64,000 nt of DNA from Styela clava. Its lineage: Eukaryota > Chordata > Ascidiacea > Stolidobranchia > Styelidae. The stretch spans positions 9,879,383 through 9,943,382 of the forward strand of contig NC_135252.1 of the NCBI RefSeq assembly GCF_964204865.1. The letters are read 5' to 3'. Both the position numbers and the translations under genes were made by a program. This document shows positions 20,746-42,104 of this stretch, piece by piece; within the stretch, counting starts at the first letter, position 1, and every line of letters starts with the position of its first letter. The notes under the pieces are model-generated. The model ran no database searches. It was not told the DNA's origin and saw only the letters and a program-made list of their open reading frames with translations.

Positions 20746-21591
20746 CAATGTTACTTGGTAAGCAACCCTTACACAACTTTGTGATGTTTGTTAAACTAGC
20801 AAACACATAAACCAGTACTGCACGCATTATCAAAGTGACCCCCATACTTTATTTTGAAGATAGCGAAGAACATAAATATCTGCAAATATGGTTTATTGTT
20901 TGGACAACGGGCGTTCATTTGGCAGGCTCTCCCAATTTGTCACCAAAATGACGGACTGGGTGCACAAATATTTCTCACCAAGACAACGTAATAAACAATG
21001 CAGAGGCAATGAGTTATAAATGGAGATTTTACATAAAAAAATTATTGTTCGTTCGAAATTATATGCCATTGAAATGTCGATATCAACCGTCCGAGAGTTG
21101 CCATATATTGTTTTTGGTAATAATAGATATTGCTCTATACAATTACTGAAAAATGCTAGTTAATATTCTGAAAACAGAAGCTATGAAAACCAAAGTTAGA
21201 AAGCAAAATGAGTTAATAAATCATACTTCTGATCGTTTGGCATAAGTCTCTATTATTCGTTATTTGTTTGAACAAACAATTTGAGGTTTACAATTGAAAT
21301 GATTTCCGACCTAGTCGAAGAAAATTCAATGTTTGTTGTAATGATGCTCGTTTGACGCAATGAATTACACTGCAAACATCAGTTGGCATACAAACATTCG
21401 TCACCAATCGCGTACGATACTGGGAACAAATCGTATCTACGTAAAATACTAGTCATTCTCGTAATAATTTGATTTTTATATTTTTTTGTCAAATATCCGT
21501 TATATAGCATCAATGTAAATATTTTGAACTCAGATCTAAGTTCGCATTGGAAGAATTATTTCAGAAGGCAGGTAGTGTAAGACAAAATAGT
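20746..21591. other. Upstream region of the actin-related gene
   Basis: No second gene is seen. The open frame entering the actin-related gene can be read from 21547 only with a non-ATG codon, so ATG 21592 was preferred as the start. No clear TATA box chosen. Confidence 0.5.
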
Positions 21592-24500
21592 ATGGGATGT
21601 TCCGCAAGTGTCGACGTTAAAAAGCCAGAAAATGTTAAGTTCCAACCCGAGACGAATAAACTTGAAACAGAAAAAATCATACACGACGTAAAGGATTTGG
21701 AAGTAATCTATAAACAAGACAGTGAAAAAATTAATCAAGTTAAATCATTTGCGGTGCCAGAACACGAAAACGTGAATGTGGATATTACTAATACAGCCGA
21801 GCAAACGAATAAAATCAATCAGGATAACGGAAGTAATCTACCTAACTTGAACAATAAGCATAAGGATAAACAGGAAAAGGCACCTCGCGGTAATTTAGTA
21901 AAGGACGAAAACATTGACACACTGCAACCTCAGGGTGAGGAACAAATTGCACTGGACAAAGCATTACGAGAGTTGAGGCAAAGTTTGTTTACTTCAGGCA
22001 TTGTACCAACACATGATCAAACAGATTTCACACTTCACAGTACTATCGTGGGTGAGTTAAAAAGTGTAATGTAATTGTGTAGTAAATACATTATTACATA
22101 TAGTTTGTTATATTTAATTTTCGCACCATTATATGAAGCAAACGTTACAATGGGGACATGAATTCTTCAATAATTACACCATGCACGGTAATTATTACGT
22201 TTCCCCCCATTTGTCAGTGCCTATGCTATGATATAACAGTTGTGCGACAACTGCCAATCTTCCGGAATTCCACAGTCATTAATGTTTTTAGAATCGATGC
22301 TAAATTATTACATATTTAGTGAATAGAGGGTAATGGAAAAAAGTTGACCGTTGTTACACTGAGACTGCCGGAATAAATTCCCCGTGATTTTTATTGAACG
22401 TAATACTACTATTTTCGGTATCAATTTTCACTAAATTGGAAATTCAATCAGATAATTTACAATTGCATTATTTACCTGTCAGGTTAAATTCTATATGCCT
22501 GAGAAGTAGTTGACTTACGATAGAACAAAGTTCGGCCTGTTGGCACAGTCCAATCCGCGCGCTGCGTTCATGCATTCAAAATGTATATTCTGCATGTCCT
22601 CTATCAAACAATCTGATAAATGCCAATCCATCTAAGACTAATTAATTGATTTTAGGTAATTCGACAATCACCATCGACGCAGGATGCTTCAAAGCAGCAG
22701 TCGTTGACGCGGGAACTGGCTTTTGCAAGGCAGGTCTAACAGGCGATGATATTCCATCGGTGGTGATTCCAACATTAGTTGGAAGACTGCGTGACAACGC
22801 AACATCTGTCGAAACTTTCATCGGAAAAGATGCTAAATTAAGAGGAAATTCACTTAAGTATTCGGTATGGTATTCATATACCCCTTCTCCGCATCAATTA
22901 TTAACGTGCAAATGAGTTTAGAGATCATGTCAATGAAAAATGGTTTTTACTACAACCCTTTTGATCTAGAATCCAATCAATCGGGGAATTGTTGAGAATT
23001 GGGATGACATGGAACGAGTGTACGACCATATTTTACATATGGATCTCAACTTGGAACCAAACGAGTATGGTGTGGTTATTCCAGAATCACCACTAAGTGA
23101 CAGAAAACGAAGAGAGAAACTTACAGAGGTAAATTAACATTGGTAAATTGGTTTCTGTATCGCAGGGTTCGCAAAAGTTGAATCGATTGTAAATGTAAAT
23201 TCTTGCAAATCTATTCATAGCAACTTCTAATCAACGTACATTTCAGATGATGTTTGAGAAATTTGACGTCAAAAAACTTTATTTGGGTTCATCTCCGTCA
23301 CTTGCATTACATGCATTTGGACATTCGACTGGATTACTAGTGTCGTTGGGCCATGGAGTTTGTCACGCAGTACCAGTTGTACAAGGTTAGTAGACACGCG
23401 GACTAATTTTTTTCCAGGCAATTATAAACATTATTATTTTTAAACTGCTCAAATAGATGGAAATAAAAGTGGTACTGTCGACTTGGGCACATGCCGGTGC
23501 CTAGAAAGACAAAGGCAACAACATCATAGGTACCAAAACCACTAACAATTTGGCACAACAGCCTATAAGTCGATTTCGTGCTCAATACTGTATAAAAAGA
23601 CCGTTATGAGTTTGAAGTACCTTCATAACATAAGTCACAACAAAAATCAATATGCGGCTGCTACAAATTGATATTCTTTTGAATTAATCTTTCACAAATT
23701 TAACTTATGCTAATGCATTTCGGTATGTTTACAGGAAACATCATTGAACACGCAGTACGAACAACAAAAATAGGAAACAAAGATGTCATAGACAAACTGC
23801 AGAGAATTATGACAACAAAACTCTCAAGCATTGGTAATTGTTTTTGTGGGAAATGTTATTTTATTTTCATTGCAACGTCTGGTTTTCTGTACATGTCAGG
23901 GTGACCGTACATTTGAACCCATGTACATTTGAACCCATGCGTATATCCACGGGTTCAATCTATATGCGGGTGCTAAAACCCATGGGTTAGGGTTAGTATG
24001 GGTTTAACTATCCGTGAAACAAAAAAAATTCCATAGGTGCAATAGCATACAGGTGCAGTTGTCATGGGTTCAAATGTACGTGGGTTCAAATGTAATGGAA
24101 CCACATGTCAGGCACATATAATGACGTCGTACTTGATTGGCGCAAAGTCGGTTTAAAAAGATGAGCTGATGAGAGTTTACTGCTTGATAAAACAAAATGC
24201 TGAAGACTCTGTGTGTGTAATCCCTTCCTTTTTAGACGAAGACATTGCCAGAGCAATGGTTGAAAAGACAAACTACGTGTGCAAAGATTATGATGAGACA
24301 AAGAGAGACGAAAAGCTTTGTGAACAAAAATCGTACACTCTCCCAAATGGAAAATCTGTTAATTTGAGAAATGAAAGATATGAGTGCCCGGAGATATTCT
24401 TTAAACCACAAATGATTCCAGGTAAATAATTTTAAACATAGAATAAAAAAATTTTGGCCTATGCGTAATCGAGTCGTCCTTTCCAGAAAACAGATGACAG

Positions 24501-25184
24501 CTGTGAAACATATTAATATTAAGTAAATTGTTCGCTCAAAAATTGTTCGTTTTGCACAAACTTTTGTTAGTACACGAGGGCTTTAGCCCGAAGGGCGAAT
24601 TCTTAAAAATCAAGTAAATGAGAAATATTTTCCACTTTTAAACTATCAAAATACTTTGCTGAATATTGCTTCAAACTATGATTGAATTCCAATTCAAAAG
24701 AAACCTACGATATATCTTTGTAATATTTCCAAATGAAAAATTTTCGAAATTGTATTATTCACATCTATGTATTGATCCCCTCAAAAAGTCTTTTTCCAGT
24801 TCCATGACTACATTTTCAATAAGATGAAACATCATTTTAGCTCCTTGTTGTTTAGGTTGCACTGAAAGCAGTTTGTCAGATATTTGCCTGAGTAGTTTAC
24901 ATTCGATTGAAGATCAACAATCAATTTCTGCTTTGCGGCAAAATATTATTCTGACGGGTGGATCTTCATTGTTACCGGGAATCGGAGAACGCCTTAGAAT
25001 GGAACTCAACAAAAACGAGAATGCTAATGACCGAGCTAACGTTTTATTACTGCCAAAAAGACAATATGCCGAATGGCGTGGTGCTTCAACCTTGGTTTCA
25101 ATGAATTCTTCAAAGCATCGATGGGTCAGTCGAGAATTATATGATGAACACGGAGAAACAATAATTCATAGGAAATACGTGTGA
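21592..25184 (+). CDS. Divergent actin-related protein with MGCSAS N-terminal extension
   Basis: Seven exons: 21592-22051, 22656-22864, 22970-23128, 23247-23385, 23735-23833, 24236-24421 and 24856-25184 (1581 bp, 526 aa). All phases agree. Residues 1-153 are a charged, low-complexity extension beginning MGCSAS, the form used for N-myristoylation at Gly2 with palmitoylation at Cys3. From about residue 160 to the end the actin fold is continuous: DAGTGFCKAG (phosphate loop 1), GIVENWDDMERVY, MMFEKFD, TGLLVSLGHG (phosphate loop 2, altered), ILTGGSSLLPGI (adenosine site) and a C-terminal HRKYV in place of actin's HRKCF. Actin Q137, D154 and D157 align to S, S and H, so ATP hydrolysis is probably lost. 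It is too divergent to be conventional actin and is not assignable to a named ARP; resemblance to testis-type actin-like proteins is a guess. Confidence 0.88.
23900..24102 (+). mobile_element. Mutator-like MITE, copy 1 (203 bp)
   Basis: The ends are inverted (GGTGACCGTACATTTGAACCC / reverse of GGGTTCAAATGTAATGGAACC) and made of repeated TACATTTGAACCCACG-type units. The perfect 9-bp target duplication acatgtcag is at 23891-23899 and 24103-24111. It lies in intron 5 of the actin-related gene. A 9-bp duplication points to the Mutator (MULE) superfamily. Confidence 0.9.
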
Positions 25185-28872: not shown

Positions 28873-30053
28873 CTAAATACAAAGTTTTAAGAGGTTCAAT
28901 TGGTCAAAAATATTAACTAGATAAGCAAGTTTATATATGAAGGTACTATCCGAAAAGCAAGATTTTAATTCGTATTCTCCCTTTTTGTTCAGAAATTTTT
29001 TCAATTCCTTCCCTAGTTCAAAAACTCTGACTAAAACATTGCCCTTGGACAGCCGACAGGCCCGAGTATGAGTATAGTAAATGTTCAGCATTCATCCCAG
29101 AGCATAATTTTCTGAACAGGCGTGTGTTCAGTGCTTCATTCTTTACAAAGTTTACCGTCTTGATAACTGTGTTCAGAACATCTTGAAGAAAGTTTGATAG
29201 AGAGCAAGAGCTTGTCTGTGTATCATATTATACAATGACATCAGGAGAACGATTACACACTAATCTCTGTGAGCCACTTTTATTTCCTAGCATTGCAGGA
29301 GCACTGTCCGCGCATATACCACAAATATTGTCCCAGGCGACCCCTTCTTGGTCAGTAAACGCAGCCAACTTTTTCATCACATTCACTCTCGTGTTGGCCT
29401 CTGATGCAGAGCAAAACAAGATATTATATTTTATGCCACTTTCATTTACTTTCGTCAATAAGTACAATTCTAGCCATTTCTGAAGCCCATGGTTTGATGA
29501 GAGTTTCGTTAATTGTGTACGATTTGGTGACCGTACATTTGAACCCACGTACATTTGAACCCATGTCTATATCCGCGGGTTCAATCAATATGCGGGTGCT
29601 GAAACCCATGGGTTAGGGTTAGTATGGGTTCAACTATCCGTACAACAAAAAAATTTCCATAGGTGCAATAGTATGCAGGTGCAATTGTCACGGGTTCAAA
29701 TGTACGTGGGTTCAAATGTAATGGAACCGTACGATTTATATTGCTTTGCGATTATAAAGCTCACTGCATAAGACGTTTCAACAATGCTTCGGGAATGTTG
29801 CTGGGATTCTTTTGTAAAATCCAATCGCAAACGCTTCACACTATCTTCCTTAAGTTTGAAAAAAAAAACACACATCTTTATCCTTGTAGGCTGGATGAAC
29901 TTTTTCCGAATAAAGTTTCGGTTTTGATGGCATCAATGAAGGATGTCCAAGAACTTCATAGCATAAAACACACTGTTCTTTTTCTTCTCTGTTTTTAAGA
30001 AATGATGTGAATTCATACTGAATGTAATTTTCGATGAACTTTCGTTTTGCCAT
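28873..30053 (-). pseudogene. Decayed hAT transposase with BED zinc finger (ZBED5/FAM200-like)
   Basis: Pieces in order on the minus strand: a BED finger at 29850-30053 (KRKFIENYIQYEFTSFLK..., CVLCYEVL); then, after a frameshift in an A-run, KEDSVKRLRLDFTKESQQ at about 29750-29850. After the inserted element comes the catalytic-domain part (GICADSAPAMLGNKSG) at 29228-29525, and finally LSKGNVLVRVFELGKELKKF at 28873-29091. These match hAT proteins related to vertebrate ZBED5/FAM200. The first zinc-finger His of the pair appears lost, there are frameshifts and stops, and the middle and C-terminus are short. Not expected to be active. Confidence 0.82.
29526..29728 (+). mobile_element. Mutator-like MITE, copy 2 (203 bp), nested in the hAT remnant
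   Basis: Same length and ends as the copy at 23900. Perfect 9-bp target duplication gtacgattt at 29517-29525 and 29729-29737. It splits the transposase remnant, so it arrived after that element. Confidence 0.92.
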
Positions 30054-31229
30054 TCCAACCGGTTTCCAAGTTTCAAATGACGATACGATTACTATTTCTA
30101 TTACTATCCCCCTTTTAGTGCAATCTGACCATGGAATGTGTTCGTTGCGTCATAATGTTTTTTAACAGCGAGGCATGTTTTGCAATAGATATCTTGGTTT
30201 TTTTTTTCAGGACGCGATTTTGCTAACGAATCATTTTTTTTTATTCAACAACTGTAGCAATTTATATCTGGTATGTGGCCCACCTCAAAAAGTTTCCGTG
30301 GTTCACCAGTGGGCTATGGCGATCGTGATTCATCTTTCTTCAAGCTTTAGGGTTTCATTATTGAAGTTGCTATTTGTGGCTATACTTCCGCGACGTCACG
30401 ATGAAAATTCCAATGCGTCTATCTGTATTCAATAAAAAAATTGATTGCAGTTTCAGAGCAAATTGAATGCAATTTGGCTCCCATGCAGTTTTAAACTGAC
30501 GATTCATGTAAATTATATAAGATATATATATATATATATATATATGAATATATATGCTTTCGTTTCTGGCTGTTGCAGTCTTCTGTCGTAGTCTGGTGGT
30601 AATGCGATTTAAATAGGGTATCTGTGAGTACTTTTTGCCTGTGAAAAATAATTGGTAATCGGCATATGGTAAGGATAACGAAGCATAATGGTGATTCTAA
30701 ACAATAATATCAAAAACTTAATTGCAATTAAAAACAATTTTTTGTCTAGCAATTCATACAACGTAAGATATTACTGAGGCTTACTGGAGAATTCTAGTGC
30801 ATGAATTATATTGGCTAAGAAAAGCAGGAATTATCTAATGGGTGTGTTCGATAAATGAGCAATTGTGGATTCGAATAAAAATGTTTAAAAATAAGACCTT
30901 ATCAATTAAAATGTGATATTTTCAATAATTAAGATTTTATACCGGGTATATGGGTTTGTATTTTTTACATTTTCTCCTGTGTAATATAATGAATATCATA
31001 AAAATTTAGTGTTTTTATGAAATGCTTTTCGACATTCCCTTTGAACAAGACATCAGAGAAGACGCTATATCTATGTTGCGAGCTACCATAATTTAGACGT
31101 TCGTCTGCATGGCACCAAAATTTATTATTTATCCAATTCATTTGTTTTGACAGATTGTGTCATTTAGTATCAGTCAAGATCGAGATTTGCTGCTGAAATC
31201 TAGATTCTATCAAAAAAACGGAATCAAGT
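30054..31229. other. Intergenic, AT-rich
   Basis: Contains an (AT)n microsatellite at about 30522-30545 and possible outer sequence of the hAT remnant. No gene recognised. The 31.1-31.23 kb part should hold the promoter of the membrane-protein gene, but no core element was picked out. Confidence 0.5.
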
Positions 31230-32171
31230 ATGAACTGCTCTGTGAACAATTCCAACATCTTCGTTGAATCTTTTAAGGATATACTCAACGGAGAATTTTA
31301 CGTGGATATAATTGTTACAATACTTTTGATTTACATTGCATTCTGTCAGTTCTACGTTCTTATTTCAAAAAGATTGTTTAAGCTTCGACTTGATAAGTGT
31401 ACGGACTTTTTGTTGGCGTCGAATCTTCGGTCTGTAATGAATTTGACACTTGTTTTCATCGGTATCCTTGCTTTAGCTAAGATGGTAGTTGACTTCATGT
31501 TTTATCTGAATTTGAACAGTGCGGTCTTTGTAGCTGACGTGCTTTTATCACAGTGGGTGTTCACGTCGGAGTATCTCATACTGTGGCTCCGTCAGACAAT
31601 GTTTCACAACGAACCATCACTGAAGCACCTCTCGTCGAAAGCGTTGCATAATTTCAGTCGGTTTCAAGGATTTTTCATGGTATTCTTCAATGTGTTTCTG
31701 AGTACTGCGATTACATATGAAGGAATTCGGAATAATATAATTAGATTGAATTGCTTTTCAAAATGGATGACGATTTGTTTCCTTCTTTATCAAATTGAAA
31801 CTCAAATTTCCACTCTGGCATTATTTGTAATTCCGTTATTTCGCCACAGAAAAACTTCACGAAAATCATTCGGGGGTCAAAGGTTACAACAGAAATCCAT
31901 CAGCCTATTGAAAAGGTCGATGATAATTTCTCCTATAACAATGTTTAGCGACATTGTCGCATTTGTTGTATTATCTATATCTGGATTATCGGCGGTTTAC
32001 AATGTGAATATAGCTTTTAACTTGTGGTGTCTGCTTTTTTGCTTTGAAGACTGGCAGACGAGAATGCTTCCATGTTTTGCTGTTTGCAAATGTTGTGAAC
32101 AAAAACAACAAGAAAGAGATTTAAATTCAAGCAATGTCACTGAATGTAAAACTGCTGAAGAAGTCGTTTAA
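31230..32171 (+). CDS. Intronless seven-helix membrane protein, family unknown
   Basis: Single uninterrupted frame of 313 aa from an ATG. Hydrophobic segments lie at about 24-46, 70-92, 98-120, 145-165, 180-204, 231-254 and 258-274. The N-terminus carries N-glycosylation sequons (NCS at 2, NNS at 6), suggesting it is outside. A basic loop (206-229) lies between helices 5 and 6. A cysteine cluster (CKCCE, 286-290) follows helix 7, a typical palmitoylation setting. This is GPCR-like topology, but no DRY after helix 3 and no NPxxY in helix 7 are seen, so it is not a plain class A receptor. A chemoreceptor-like or lineage-specific family is possible. It is followed by AATAAA at 32358. Confidence 0.7.
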   Translation: MNCSVNNSNIFVESFKDILNGEFYVDIIVTILLIYIAFCQFYVLISKRLFKLRLDKCTDFLLASNLRSVMNLTLVFIGILALAKMVVDFMFYLNLNSAVFVADVLLSQWVFTSEYLILWLRQTMFHNEPSLKHLSSKALHNFSRFQGFFMVFFNVFLSTAITYEGIRNNIIRLNCFSKWMTICFLLYQIETQISTLALFVIPLFRHRKTSRKSFGGQRLQQKSISLLKRSMIISPITMFSDIVAFVVLSISGLSAVYNVNIAFNLWCLLFCFEDWQTRMLPCFAVCKCCEQKQQERDLNSSNVTECKTAEEVV

Positions 32172-35678: not shown

Positions 35679-38600
35679 TTACACAGGTCCACTAATGTGA
35701 GGTATAGAGTTTAAACTCTTTATTTTATTATCTTTCTTCCACTTCATTCTTCTGTTCTGAAACCAAATTTTGATCTGCCTTTCCGACAGACAAAGTGAGT
35801 GAGCAATTTCAATTCTTCTACGTCTTGTTAAATACCGATTAAAATGGAATTCCTTTTCCAGCTCTAACGTTTGAAATCTTGTGTAAGCAGTTCTTGTACG
35901 TTTTGTTGGATCAACAGTCTCACCTGAGAAACAAATTGACGCATTGTATAGAATGTAGGGATATTTATAATATATATAGGTTCTGAGGATGGTGGTGTAT
36001 TAACGTAAAATGGCGCCCAGGACAAATTTTGAAATTCGCACTCTTGATCGTTGACAGACAATTTTTAACGACTGCTGAAAATATTATATTGAAAACATTT
36101 CACGATTAAAACGTTTCGCCCATTGTTGCGCCACTGTTCAAAAGGCGCCAATGGCACGAGCCACTGATGCCATACCATAGATACGCCACTGTTGTCTAAG
36201 GATGAAGGTAATAAGCGCAATAGTTCAATAATTTGTCTTTGCAATGAAATTGTCCAAAATATTTGTTTCAGCTCTTTATACCTTAGTTACGTTAATCGTA
36301 ATAAAACACATTTATCGAAGAAATTTTCCACATTAAATTTAGTCGTGGAAAATTAGTAGGACTAGAAATGCTCTGATGTGAGAGTCGGATTACCCTTGCG
36401 AGACACCCACTATAGTATCATGCCTTTCATGTTTTTGCATAATTTCTCTTTCAAATAAATTAGGAATCCGTGGAGAATTCGAGGTGAAAGTAGGCTACTT
36501 ATTTACTTTCGGCAATAGACCGTTAGCCAGAACGTTCGCGACAAACTTGAGGCGTTATTAAGCTTGGCCAATTTATTGAATTCACTCAATAGGTCGTGCG
36601 ATAAACACAAGGTTATGGGAAACTTGAAACTGAAATTGAACGCCCGCCAGAATTTGGGGTAAAAAAGAGTTCAAGCCCTCATCCATTCATCTTCGACAAA
36701 AGGTTACGCCTGGCATTCATTGAGGGGTTATAAAGACCATTAATCACTCGTTTGTTTTTGTCTCGGGGTGTGCCCCATTGATGAGCGTATCGCTGTTAAT
36801 TCATCTTTTCTCAAACTTGATAATGGCATTTTAAATATTTTCATATTTATCGCCCACACTCAGTCGCAAGATGAAGTTTTAGCAAATGAATATTTTAACC
36901 TTCAGTAAATAAACGTAATTTAACTTGCTTTCACTACAAACTTGACCTCCAATGATTCTAGTACAGAGCGGGCCATGCATGAACTTTGTTTAAAAAAAAT
37001 TTTACCATATCAGAGATGGCAATATTATATTTGTTCATACCTGGTATACAGGATTGTATTACTGAGAAATTACAGTTAAATTGATGCAATTTTATTACTA
37101 TACCAAATTATTTGTGCCATGAGACAGGATGTGTTTTGCGTATAAAATAAAATAGTTGTATTTATGCACAACACAATTGAAAGTACAAAATGGCCTCCAT
37201 TGTCGTCTGAAAATATTGACTCAGTTGCTTGCAAATCGATTTATATATTCATTTTTTAACGAAAATATGACCTAATGTTCTGCGACTATTCATAAGACAC
37301 GTACTAATGTAAAACAAATACTAGTATGAAGGTAATAGACCTTCCATTAAAATAATTTTGAATATCATAGACAAGTTTCATTTTTCTTTCAAATATCATA
37401 AGAATAAATCGTTCACATTTTGGGTACTAATCGGAAATTAATTAAATTTGAAGAATGCAAAATTTGGCATTACTTTTAAATTGAAGGAAAATCGTTATCA
37501 GATATGCTAGGAAATACGCGACGCCATTTTTGTTCAAATTTCTTATATTGATCTTGTTGTGAATTTCAGCTCCTTCCCAAGTGTGAAAAAAATTAAATTA
37601 TGTCGCCCAAGTAGCAGCTTGGGACAATGAGCAACCTGCTGAATTAAAATTAATTCAAGGAACAATCTTTTGTATAGGAATTGTTTGTGACTTTGACTCC
37701 GAACAAGGATGCGTACGTGTATTAATTGATATGTAATTAGCTATTATTTTAAAAGAAAAAAATTCTCGCGATTCAGCAAGTCAAGTATATTTTTCCAACC
37801 ATAAAAATCCATCATATACAATATCATACAATTCAACAATCACAAGGCGCGGGGAGCCAAATGGTTATCGAGCAGCGACACCCAAGGTTAGTGTCGACGA
37901 GTACCGCATAGCATTGTCGAATTATGTAACTAAAATATTTTACTAGAGATATATATTCATTAGAGATAATTTTATGAGAATTGCCTGCCTAATCTATTAA
38001 ACATGGACTTCAACAATTTATTTTTTCTTATCAAAATTCAAAATCTAATAATTAATTACACCCAATATTATCTTCTTGATTTATCAATAAATTTATTTAA
38101 TTCAAACATGAAGTATACATCTCTGTTAAAATGTAAGAAAATGCGAGTTGTCAAATGCGAATATAAAATTTGAAATAGAGATGAAATACTTCAAAGTTCT
38201 AGGGCAGTGTTTCCCAACCCGAGTCCGCGGTCTCAAATGAGTCCGCGGAGCGTTTGAATGAGTCCGCAACAAGCCAGAAATTCGTGCGAGCCGCAAACGA
38301 TTTTGCGGAACTTAACTATCAGCCAATTTACGATTTACGTTGGAATTTACTTAAAACATAAAAAGCAAGTTTATTCACATAACATTAATCGAGTCAATAA
38401 TTACTCGTATTTATTCAAATATTCGAATATTCAACTATTAGAATAGCAATTTAATATTCGAAAATTTGGTAACAGGTTACGCGACAGGTCACTTGCACTT
38501 GTGCGCGTCCCCTAATCAAACGATTGGATTTCACAACTCACTCACGAATTTTCGACGAAAACACTCAAGTCGGCACACGCGTCGATAAATGGTGGCAACC

Positions 38601-41600
38601 CGAATTTTCCAAATTGAAAAGCGGCAATACAAAACGGAGAACACCATAAGTTTCGTTTTATGATGGTCAGCGACCGATTAAAAACGCTTTTTTAGACATT
38701 GCAAAAGGCAAAATTTCGGGTGCTACCGTAGTATACGTATACAATCAAGTTCTACTTTCTGGAAATTTATAACAGATAGTGAGATTTTTCTAACAACGAT
38801 AACAAATTTGCACGATCGCAAAAATATGTAACAAAACTAAATATAATCGGGCAATATAGTCTCACATTAGTGTGTTCACAGATTGCCGATTGGCATTTTA
38901 AAGAAGAAATGCTTTCACCTTGAGGTAAGTCCACGCAACCGCGAGTTACCATGAACACAATTAAATTAATATAGAAAGACATTGGATTGAATATTGTGCG
39001 ACAGAAAGCCAATTATACACTAAAAAAGTCGGCTCTTTTTAACGAACGCGTAATTGCGGCGAATTTTCGATTTTGAAATTCGTTACAATTCTGTTGTATT
39101 TGATTTTATTGCTTCTTCGCACAGGTTGCAATAAACGGGTGAGAAAATAGTCCGCGACCAAAAAAGGTTGGGAAACGCTGTTCTAGGGGCAGATTGATAT
39201 GATTTTCTAGTTATTTCGGAACATTATCTAGTAAACATACTCATTGGCTAAATAAAATGAGACTTAATTATAAAATAAACTCCTTAGTTAATATCATGTG
39301 TTGTACTATGCCCACTTTCTCACAACTATGTATTGTATGGTGAAAATTCAATGTATTATAACACACCAAACTGCATTTGGATATTACTCGTTCAATCATC
39401 TAACTAAACCAGTGTTTCCCAACCTATGGGTCGCGACCGAAAACTGGATCGCCTGAAAATCATCTCGAGTCGCTTGTTTTTGCAACAAAAACTTAAGAAT
39501 GATCAATTTCATTTTCTAGTAAATTTTATCGTATATTTTATATTTGTATTGAAGTGTTGCAGAACAGTAATTGTATATGTGATAAGTATCACAGCATAAA
39601 AACTTAGCAGCATCTATTTTTCTCAAGTGAACCCAAGCAACGATTTCAAAAACTAGCTGATTGCTAACAAGCGCATCTTTCGGAAAGTAAATGTCATATA
39701 AAAATGATTGTTTTATATTAGTCTTTTAATTTTGCAGTCATAAAAGCACTACATGTTTACTATCTGATTATATCCCTGGGTCGCGAGATTTTATAAAATT
39801 TGTTTTTCAAAAATGTGGGTCGCTTAAAAAAAAGGTTGGGAACCACTGATCTAAACGACCACCTACTTTAATTGATCGTAGTTCGTAGATTAGCCTTGAT
39901 GGTTTTACAATAATAGTTATATACATTATTGATAAACAATGCATAATGGACTGACTTTTTATGGTTCCCGTACATTTGAACCAACGTACATTTGAACCCA
40001 CGACAATTGCACCTGCATACTATTGCACCTATGGAAAAAATTTTTGTTTTGCGGATATTTGAACCCATACTAACCCTAACCCACAGGTTTCAGCACCCGC
40101 GTGTTGATTAAACCCGCGGATATACACATGGGTTCAAATGTATGGTCACCACTTTTTATACGTTAAAACTTACTATTACAGTCCAGAAAACGTAAATATT
40201 GAATAAATACACATATGCTTAATATAGTGACTCAAATTGAATACAACCACTCGTCGAATTATATACATTTGATTTGGTTTTAATTAGTTCCTGATAAGAT
40301 TCGCATAGATATAGACGATTGCGACTAATTGGCATAAGTTATCTAATACATACGATCTTAAAGATGGTTAATAACAGATTAAAATATATACATTTGGGTC
40401 CGAGAGAGTGACAAAAATTAAAAAGTTTGAGTTCCGGAATCCCAAAATGATAGCATTTCGAAGAATATTTTGATTATCGATTTTTGGTATCCAATGGGAC
40501 TCAGAGTGGCGTTGAAAAAAGCAGCAAAACGTGTCTTCTCAGTGTACAATATATAGTTGCTGTACATAGTGTTCAACTGTATTTTGTTTTCGATAAATCA
40601 ACTTATTCTTCTCTTTTATATACAGGGGTGATAGAAATTGTTAATACTGTCTTATGCTCCTATAAAATTAATTTTTCTGTTCAATAAAACTGTAAATTTG
40701 AAAAAACATTTCAGCGTACATTTATTTGTTTTATTGACTAGTATAGTGACTTTAGTAAAATTACAGTCACATAGATAAGCTGATGTTGTGAATATTTCAT
40801 AATAAGCATCATAATTTTGATAACGTTCATCAAAACTGATATTTTAGGATGATTTTTCAATTCAGTAACTGTTTCATAACGTGATGATTTTCAAAATCTG
40901 TACTTCAATATATATATATATATGCCAACCGACTGAACCGAGGTGTAATAAATTATGAAGGTAATGCCAAATAGGAAGGACGAGATGTATCTATAAAAAA
41001 GAGCGCCTTCACGTTTATCAGTGACTTTATTTTGTTTGGAACTTTTATCAGAGAGATTTGTGAAACGAAAAAGAAAGCAAAAACTGAGGCTGGCGTAAAT
41101 TCGAAAAATATTTGGCTTTGAAGTAGAGCAAAAATACTGCAATCAATAAAATAGCGTCTATTCCATTCGATGGCGTGGGGGATATTTTCTAGCAAATTGA
41201 TGATTTACACAGTAGTCTTGATTATTATTTGTGGAACTCAAATCAAACCCGACAAACCTACAACTCAGATAATTGTAATCTAATCGTCCAATCAAGAGGG
41301 GTCTTCATGGATGCTTGACATAAAGTAGCAATAATGATTTGAACATAATATCATCGAAGCAAATTAAATCTCTTACTGTGCTGAGAGTGAATTCGTCTCA
41401 TCCACGGGTAAATTATAGTTGAATTCGATTTCGACGATTTCTTGGTTTGAGTAGTTTTCAAATAGTCGTTCCCTCTTTCAAGTCGACCAATTGGTCCTTC
41501 GTTGTGATGCCATTCATTTGATTTGTCATTAAATGATTTTAACGTGTCCTTACCAGGAGAATAACACGGGACAGATGTTTCTGATGTCTTTTGATGAAAT

Positions 41601-41938
41601 AACATATTTGTAGATTCTGTATTTAACTGATTGTCATATTTTGTTTTAGTCTTTGTGCAGTGTGAGAAGCTTGATGATGACATTCTGGAATCAGATCTAA
41701 TTTCCTCATTGTGATTCACGAATTCATCAGAAAAACTTGGTTTCCAAAAACTTGAATTCAGATTATTGCGCTCTGAAATATTCTTATTCATATTAAGAAC
41801 CCGTTCGCAGTTTGCAGACTGATTATGTCCAGAAAACGCTTCATAAAATCCTTCCATTGTGTAATTTACAGGAACATCATGCAAATATTGGTTGTTTCTG
41901 TTGATATCAGCGGCGAATCCGGCTTTGTCATTCATCAT
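35679..41938 (-). CDS. Hox5: Hox5 homeobox transcription factor
   Basis: Two coding exons: 41377-41938 and 35679-35923 (807 bp, 268 aa if ATG 41938 is the start). Exon 1 is Ser/Asn-rich and ends with the hexapeptide [11 protein letters not shown] (residues 176-186), which contacts PBC-class cofactors. The donor CACA|gtaaga and acceptor tctcag|GT join in phase 1. Exon 2 holds a complete 60-residue homeodomain (194-253): [20 protein letters not shown]..., helix 3 [26 protein letters not shown] and [10 protein letters not shown] fit the Hox5/Scr class, whereas Hox4 has QVLELEKEF and KKDHKLPNT. The C-terminus after the homeodomain is only 15 residues, as is usual for Hox5. It is a nuclear DNA-binding regulator of anterior-posterior identity. 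An upstream in-frame extension to 42040 looks non-coding, so the start is uncertain. Confidence 0.95.
35741..35920 (-). other. Hox5: Homeobox (60 codons, TALE-less ANTP class)
   Basis: The region encodes the whole homeodomain without an intron inside it. Recognition helix residues Gln50 and Asn51 (WFQNRR) and Arg5 (RTAYT arm) are present, so TAAT-type DNA binding is expected. Coordinates are approximate by a few codons. Confidence 0.92.
38205..39180. mobile_element. Non-autonomous hAT-like element, 976 bp, in Hox5 intron
   Basis: Ends CAGTGTTTCCCAACCC ... GGTTGGGAAACGCTG, with the perfect 8-bp target duplication ttctaggg (38197-38204 and 39181-39188). Subterminal GAGTCCGCGG motifs. No transposase frame. 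Confidence 0.92.
39410..39848. mobile_element. Non-autonomous hAT-like element, 439 bp, in Hox5 intron
   Basis: Ends CAGTGTTTCCCAACC ... GGTTGGGAACCACTG with subterminal GGGTCGC motifs. The flanks aactaaac / atctaaac match at 6 of 8 bases, so this is an older or mutated target duplication. Confidence 0.85.
39963..40150 (-). mobile_element. Mutator-like MITE, copy 3 (188 bp), in Hox5 intron
   Basis: Inverted orientation relative to the copies at 23900 and 29526. Perfect 9-bp target duplication actttttat (39954-39962 and 40151-40159). About 15 bp shorter than the other copies. Confidence 0.92.
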
Positions 41939-42104
41939 TTGAATTAGAAGTCTGACACAACGTAAATTACAATTATCATGAAAATGTGGAACTATATTTA
42001 ATAACGCTAATGTCGAGTACCGAAGAACAACGGTCGTCAAAGAGTATTATTAAGATGTAAACGTATGAACAGAAAATTACTAATGCTATGTTATCATTTT
42101 TCAG

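Follow-up and report, generated by a model that had tools for sequence, protein, structure and literature searches.

The Gene at the Locus

The window analysed here, i.e., the whole stretch of 64,000 nucleotides from Styela clava, corresponds to C3:9879383-9943382 in the 377-Mb assembly G000. On its plus strand lies a gene for a divergent actin-related protein (Arp), the spliced model of which comprises seven exons, reaches its last base at 25184 and gives a product of 526 amino acids (Table 1). All six introns are of the GT-AG type and every junction is in phase; with this number of introns, the gene is therefore not a simple retrocopy. The donor that closes exon 1 fits the consensus and is in phase 1 (TGG/GTGAGT, the slash marking the boundary), and exon 2 is preceded by TTTTAG. 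The earlier note had described a charged frame of 153 residues joined in phase to a complete actin fold, and this description holds, as splice signals, phase and domain matches agree; the fusion of the extension to the actin fold is further supported by coding statistics and by the startless second exon.

Table 1. Features of the window Arp gene, in window coordinates.
Feature	Position	Strand	Description
AG, possible acceptor (GAATTATTTCAG)	21563-21564	+	27 bases would remain between it and the ATG
Exon 1	21592-22051	+	ATG and N-terminal extension, 153 codons + 1 base = 460 bases
MGCSASV	21592-21612	+	acylation-type start; ATG context AGTATGG
Intron 1	22052-22655	+	GTGAGT...TTTTAG, phase 1; one AATAAA at 22372
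Exon 2	22656-22864	+	actin fold begins (AAVVDAGTGFCKAG); zero in-frame methionine
Exon 3	22970-23128	+	actin fold; ends KLTE/, an intron position also in the C4 gene
Exon 4	23247-23385	+	actin fold; carries VSLGHGVCH
Exon 5	23735-23833	+	actin fold
Exon 6	24236-24421	+	actin fold
Exon 7	24856-25184	+	actin fold completed (...IIHRKYV), TGA stop

Inspection by eye also revealed GTGGGTTCAAATGTA-type stretches in intron 5 (23890-24110), and translations at about 29560-29770, such as VQMYVGSNV, resemble by eye this dispersed repeat of intron 5.

Coding Evidence for Exon 1 and Its Start Codon

The open frame of exon 2 contains no methionine, and a start exon ending in phase 1 is therefore needed upstream. 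In the 5 kb upstream of exon 2, there are 15 phase-1 candidates that run from an ATG to a consensus-like donor. The four longest begin at 21592, one being exon 1 as modelled and three using donors inside it, and the remaining 11 are at most 145 bases long. Exon 1 has a coding score of 0.06 bits per codon, a value that 0.27% of 3000 background windows attain, and its codon-position chi-square (a measure of periodicity) is 39, which 0.57% of 3000 attain. The length of the open frame as sole proof of exon 1 was discarded as weak, given that 188 codons without a stop are no more than moderately rare, such a frame being present in 2 of 60 simulated 10-kb stretches.

The ATG at 21592 has a good context, with A at −3 and G at +4. 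It had been proposed that this start is strengthened by the lack of an in-frame ATG between 21547 and 21592; the lack is real, but it does not serve as proof, since the frame upstream of 21592 is open back to 21508 with several AGs inside it, so that a further upstream coding exon is possible and the ATG at 21592 is unproven as the start. The stretch 21508-21591 is short and scores −0.05 bits per codon versus +0.06 for exon 1. One of the AGs, at 21563-21564, could be the acceptor of a 5′ UTR intron or of trans-splicing, or else the acceptor for an undetected upstream coding exon.

The Extension and Its Predicted Acylation Motif

Exon 1 encodes MGCSASV followed by 146 charged, mostly disordered residues. 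The start fits the published N-myristoylation signature M1-G-X-X-X-[ACGST]-X7, as quoted in PMC9018777, and with a cysteine at position 3 it is of the dual-acylation type, just as had been suggested from the first six residues. Cys3 is the sole cysteine among the 153 residues of the extension, and basic residues are located at positions 10, 11, 16 and 23. The DNA pattern for MGC..S is found once in the whole window with 0.68 occurrences expected, and its presence somewhere in the window, being at chance level, was rejected as evidence. The joint probability of G2, C3 and [ACGST]6 is about 3.5e-4 per protein, calculated from the residue frequencies in 12 actins and Arps assembled from the same genome; multiplied by many thousand genes, this means that a few accidental MGC..[ACGST] starts are expected per genome. 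What matters for the weight of the motif is that it coincides with the first ATG of a coding frame, one that has a good start context.

When the extension was folded as a single sequence (mean pLDDT 59, pTM 0.20), helices were predicted with low confidence at residues 19-50 and 116-135, and the remainder was predicted to be disordered. The genome was searched for a second copy of the extension at E up to 1, and the only match was the window Arp itself, which rules out, at this threshold, that the extension was copied from another gene. No known domain was found in it by Pfam at E up to 1, and its comparison with PDB sequences at E up to 10 gave four matches, the best at 0.33, none of which was convincing.

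The Actin Fold and the Lost Active-Site Residues

Residues 165-524 form one complete actin domain, matched nearly end to end by the best PDB chain (1c0f, E 5.1e-76), and the match to the Pfam family PF00022 (Actin) has an E value of 3e-82 and scores 276.8 bits, the cut-off being 27. In the standard numbering of actin, which is also used below for His161, the residues Gln137, Asp154 and Asp157 are catalytic and Mg-site residues; the columns aligned with them are occupied in the window Arp by Ser, Ser and His, with the loop reading VSLGHGVCH. The alignment also places the D-loop at about five residues shorter than that of an actin from the same genome, and the first phosphate-binding loop and its lysine are retained. 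The protein thus departs from a conventional actin in the equivalents of Gln137, Asp154 and Asp157 as well as in the absence of a full D-loop.

Identity amounts to 33-34% with three conventional actins of the genome and to 31.4-31.5% with human ACTL7A and ACTL9. In the tree, where most nodes have low support, the window Arp is a long branch that joins none of Arp1-Arp4 (the labels Arp1-Arp4, Arp5, Arp8 and Arp10 within the genome were assigned by eye). It also falls outside the ACTL7A/ACTL9 pair, which has a support of 99%, with weak deeper nodes.

A Second Arp on Contig C4 and Other Divergent Actins

The genome yielded 115 exon-level actin-family matches, and 20 further stretches, some of them overlapping, were taken for inspection. 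Five divergent Arps or actins were examined. A predicted anchor is present in two of them (the window Arp and one on contig C4), a third has an acidic but anchorless extension, and the last two have no long extension; the tally covers these five and neither the conventional-actin clusters, the Arps labelled by eye nor a one-exon actin fragment (L026).

The C4 Arp (C4:9180750-9189509; L016, L017) is modelled with seven exons, all junctions being in phase, and with 591 residues, and it matches the Pfam Actin family at E 2.9e-81. As modelled, residues 11-29 form a transmembrane helix, which is followed by a charged acidic linker and a complete actin fold. The first exon begins MDWYSSDIYSPAAIVLVIIVGALSIWKFLDAHRDG; an in-frame stop lies three codons upstream of this ATG, and the Kyte-Doolittle mean of residues 11-29 is 2.24, which none of 5000 shuffles of the first-exon protein attained. 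Acidic residues precede the hydrophobic stretch and basic ones follow it, and this distribution of charges suggests an N-out/C-in topology, in which the actin fold would lie in the cytoplasm. Two donors of the model are weak, GTACGC after the first exon and GTTTGT after the third; the first-exon join (C4:9181197/9182014) rests on phase and on the weak GTACGC, and a second phase-1 donor is present 24 bases further on.

Both Arps have Ser and His in place of the Asp154 and Asp157 equivalents, in a shared SxGHG loop (VSLGHGVCH in the window Arp, VSSGHGYTE in the C4 Arp). The C4 Arp additionally lacks the His161 equivalent, the loss of Gln137 being noted for the window Arp. One intron position is common to both genes, at KLTE/MMFE in the window Arp and KLE/IIME in the C4 Arp. 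Within the actin domain, the two share about 25% identity, and they are not grouped in the trees, where support is mostly low and the branches are long. Homology of the two extensions was considered and rejected: their local score of 31 was equalled or exceeded in 865 of 1000 shuffles, and in 929 of 1000 when the transmembrane part was left out. With no grouping, 25% identity and dissimilar extensions, the two Arps therefore do not constitute a demonstrated family, and no common ancestry is claimed for the layout in spite of the intron position and the SxGHG loop that they share; their likeness could equally well stem from convergence or from common descent. The idea of a membrane-tethered Arp does gain support from this second divergent Arp of the same genome, for which an N-terminal transmembrane helix is modelled.

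A third divergent Arp (L022; C3:6327162-6329640, minus strand, at 6.33 Mb) has a long acidic N-terminal extension and is anchorless. Its start is perhaps MEQKVNPN, in a model that is incomplete by one middle piece, and its upstream frame contains an in-frame TAA, which points either to an intron there or to a damaged gene. The two divergent actins without a long extension (L012 at C1:4048541-4054319, and the first gene of L010 at C1:259012-263235) also have altered second phosphate loops.

Comparison with Known Systems

The human ACTL7A, which carries an N-terminal extension and is not known to have an anchor motif, resembles the window Arp in being divergent and in having GHG at the Asp157 loop, whereas the weakly resolved tree does not unite the two. 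In spermatids, ACTL7A is needed for actin at the acrosome-nucleus junction (PMC9976968). The closest precedent backed by experiments is Arp53D of Drosophila, likewise a divergent protein in which an N-terminal extension is set in phase on a complete actin fold. Its extension of 40 residues is necessary for localisation and sufficient when placed on canonical actin, fails to localise when placed on GFP alone, and belongs to a protein that is recruited to the fusome and to actin cones (PMC8291977). It differs from the window Arp in length (40 versus 153 residues), and the word "lipid" is absent from the main text of that paper. Filactin of Dictyostelium also has a long N-terminal extension on an actin domain, with an actin-domain motif at residue 739 (PMC2441452); unlike the window Arp, it has a near-conventional actin domain and a far longer extension.

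The start of the window Arp has its counterpart in dual-acylated proteins such as G-alpha-o, where Gly2 and Cys3 are acylated, residue 6 is a serine and the first seven residues are taken as the minimal localisation code (PMC9018777); the two proteins share Gly2, Cys3 and Ser6, but the fold behind the motif is unrelated. The conventional actins of the same genome, in contrast, share the fold and lack the extension, and they retain Asp154, Asp157 and Gln137 as well as a longer D-loop. An exact-phrase search of the open-licence part of PMC found no lipid- or membrane-anchored actin-like proteins. The remark that no example of this layout had been described has to be narrowed accordingly: extended actins and Arps such as filactin and Arp53D are known, the extension of Arp53D being a demonstrated targeting device, and it is an anchor of this type that was not found described.

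A Putative Membrane-Tethered Arp

The reading favored here, to which a probability of roughly 0.55 is assigned, is that the gene encodes a non-canonical Arp that is fixed to a membrane by its own acylated N-terminal extension and is probably dead as an ATPase. Judging from the motif, an N-myristoyltransferase (NMT) would modify Gly2 co-translationally and a palmitoyl transferase would acylate Cys3, so that the Arp would be held on the cytoplasmic face of a membrane. The remaining part of the 153-residue extension may act as a flexible spacer, as its composition and low-confidence fold suggest. Lacking counterparts of Gln137, Asp154 and Asp157, and with a D-loop shortened by about five residues, the actin fold would be unlikely to hydrolyse ATP or to polymerise like conventional actin. 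Such a protein would more likely serve as a membrane-bound adaptor, or as a nucleation or capping site that holds actin or actin-binding partners. The C4 Arp is modelled to attain the same layout via a transmembrane helix. A role in the germline or in sperm, following the pattern of other non-canonical Arps, is a guess by analogy.

The acylation hinges on MGCSAS being the true start. If translation began in an undetected upstream exon, the motif would be internal and unacylated, and the extension would be a longer soluble linker, as in other Arps. Such an exon could be joined through the candidate acceptor AGs in the frame that is open to 21508, and L022 provides a case of a long acidic extension without any anchor; the low coding score of that (short) upstream stretch and the good start context at 21592 nevertheless make this unlikely, and an acceptor within the 5′ UTR at GAATTATTTCAG would equally explain the AG there. 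The alternative that exon 1 stands alone as a single-exon gene encoding a small acylated protein, with the actin gene using another first exon within intron 1 or further upstream, is viewed as rather improbable. The frame of exon 1 does continue to a stop of its own at 22072-22074, giving 160 codons, with an AATAAA downstream at 22372, and short phase-1 candidates for another first exon are present, e.g., 22133-22187 (18 codons, ACG/GTAATT). The GTGAGT donor of exon 1, however, has the one phase compatible with exon 2, which has no Met of its own, the competing candidates are short, and the AATAAA is little informative, with six other such sites between 21001 and 26500, of which two lie within exon 1.

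It is also conceivable that the layout is expressed as modelled and that the motif is accidental, the protein being a soluble Arp of the testis type (ACTL7/ACTL9-like) whose extension binds protein partners. The substitution of GHG for GDG at the Asp157 loop is found in human ACTL7A and ACTL9 as well, and ACTL7A, an Arp specific to the testis, is required for subacrosomal F-actin and for anchoring the acrosome (PMC9976968). Against this, the window Arp does not join this pair in the weakly resolved tree and is slightly closer in identity to three conventional actins of the genome than to ACTL7A and ACTL9, and this explanation is regarded as very unlikely.

The membrane-tethered Arp favored above can be extended, tentatively and at somewhat less than even odds, to a broader proposal, i.e., that tunicates evolved, perhaps twice, membrane-tethered and ATPase-dead pseudo-actins in which a long flexible arm, ending either in myristate plus palmitate or in a transmembrane helix, provides fixed sites for actin assembly or for the docking of partners. 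Actin is usually linked to membranes by separate linkers such as ERM proteins, talin and spectrin, and an actin fold with its own anchor would, if the proposal is true, dispense with the linker. If two divergent Arps in a single genome carry unrelated anchors, this would suggest selection for membrane placement. The window Arp would also offer a simple system for studying the function of non-canonical Arps, as the anchor could be removed or swapped and the localisation read directly.

Neighbouring and Unlinked Genes

A Hox-type gene is present on the minus strand of the window at 35682-35999 and 41351-42046, with a homeodomain match by Pfam (E 3.5e-23) and, in its upstream frame, a YPWM hexapeptide; by eye, it is Hox5-like. 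Its position at 35682 places the window Arp about 10 kb from a Hox gene. On the plus strand, at 31197-32171, there is an open frame of 324 codons that has no Pfam match and in which several hydrophobic segments were seen by eye.

That the genome is a tunicate one is supported by two linked matches on contig C9, to CesA and to GH6. Cellulose synthase (CesA) is described as present in all tunicate genomes and absent from other animals (PMC6523144). A cellulose synthase match was found here at C9:16177253-16177870 (E 1.6e-28; 105.6 bits, below the model cut-off of 699.1), and 2 kb downstream of it, on the same strand, lies a GH6 match that is above the cut-off (C9:16179895-16180164, E 1.5e-6).
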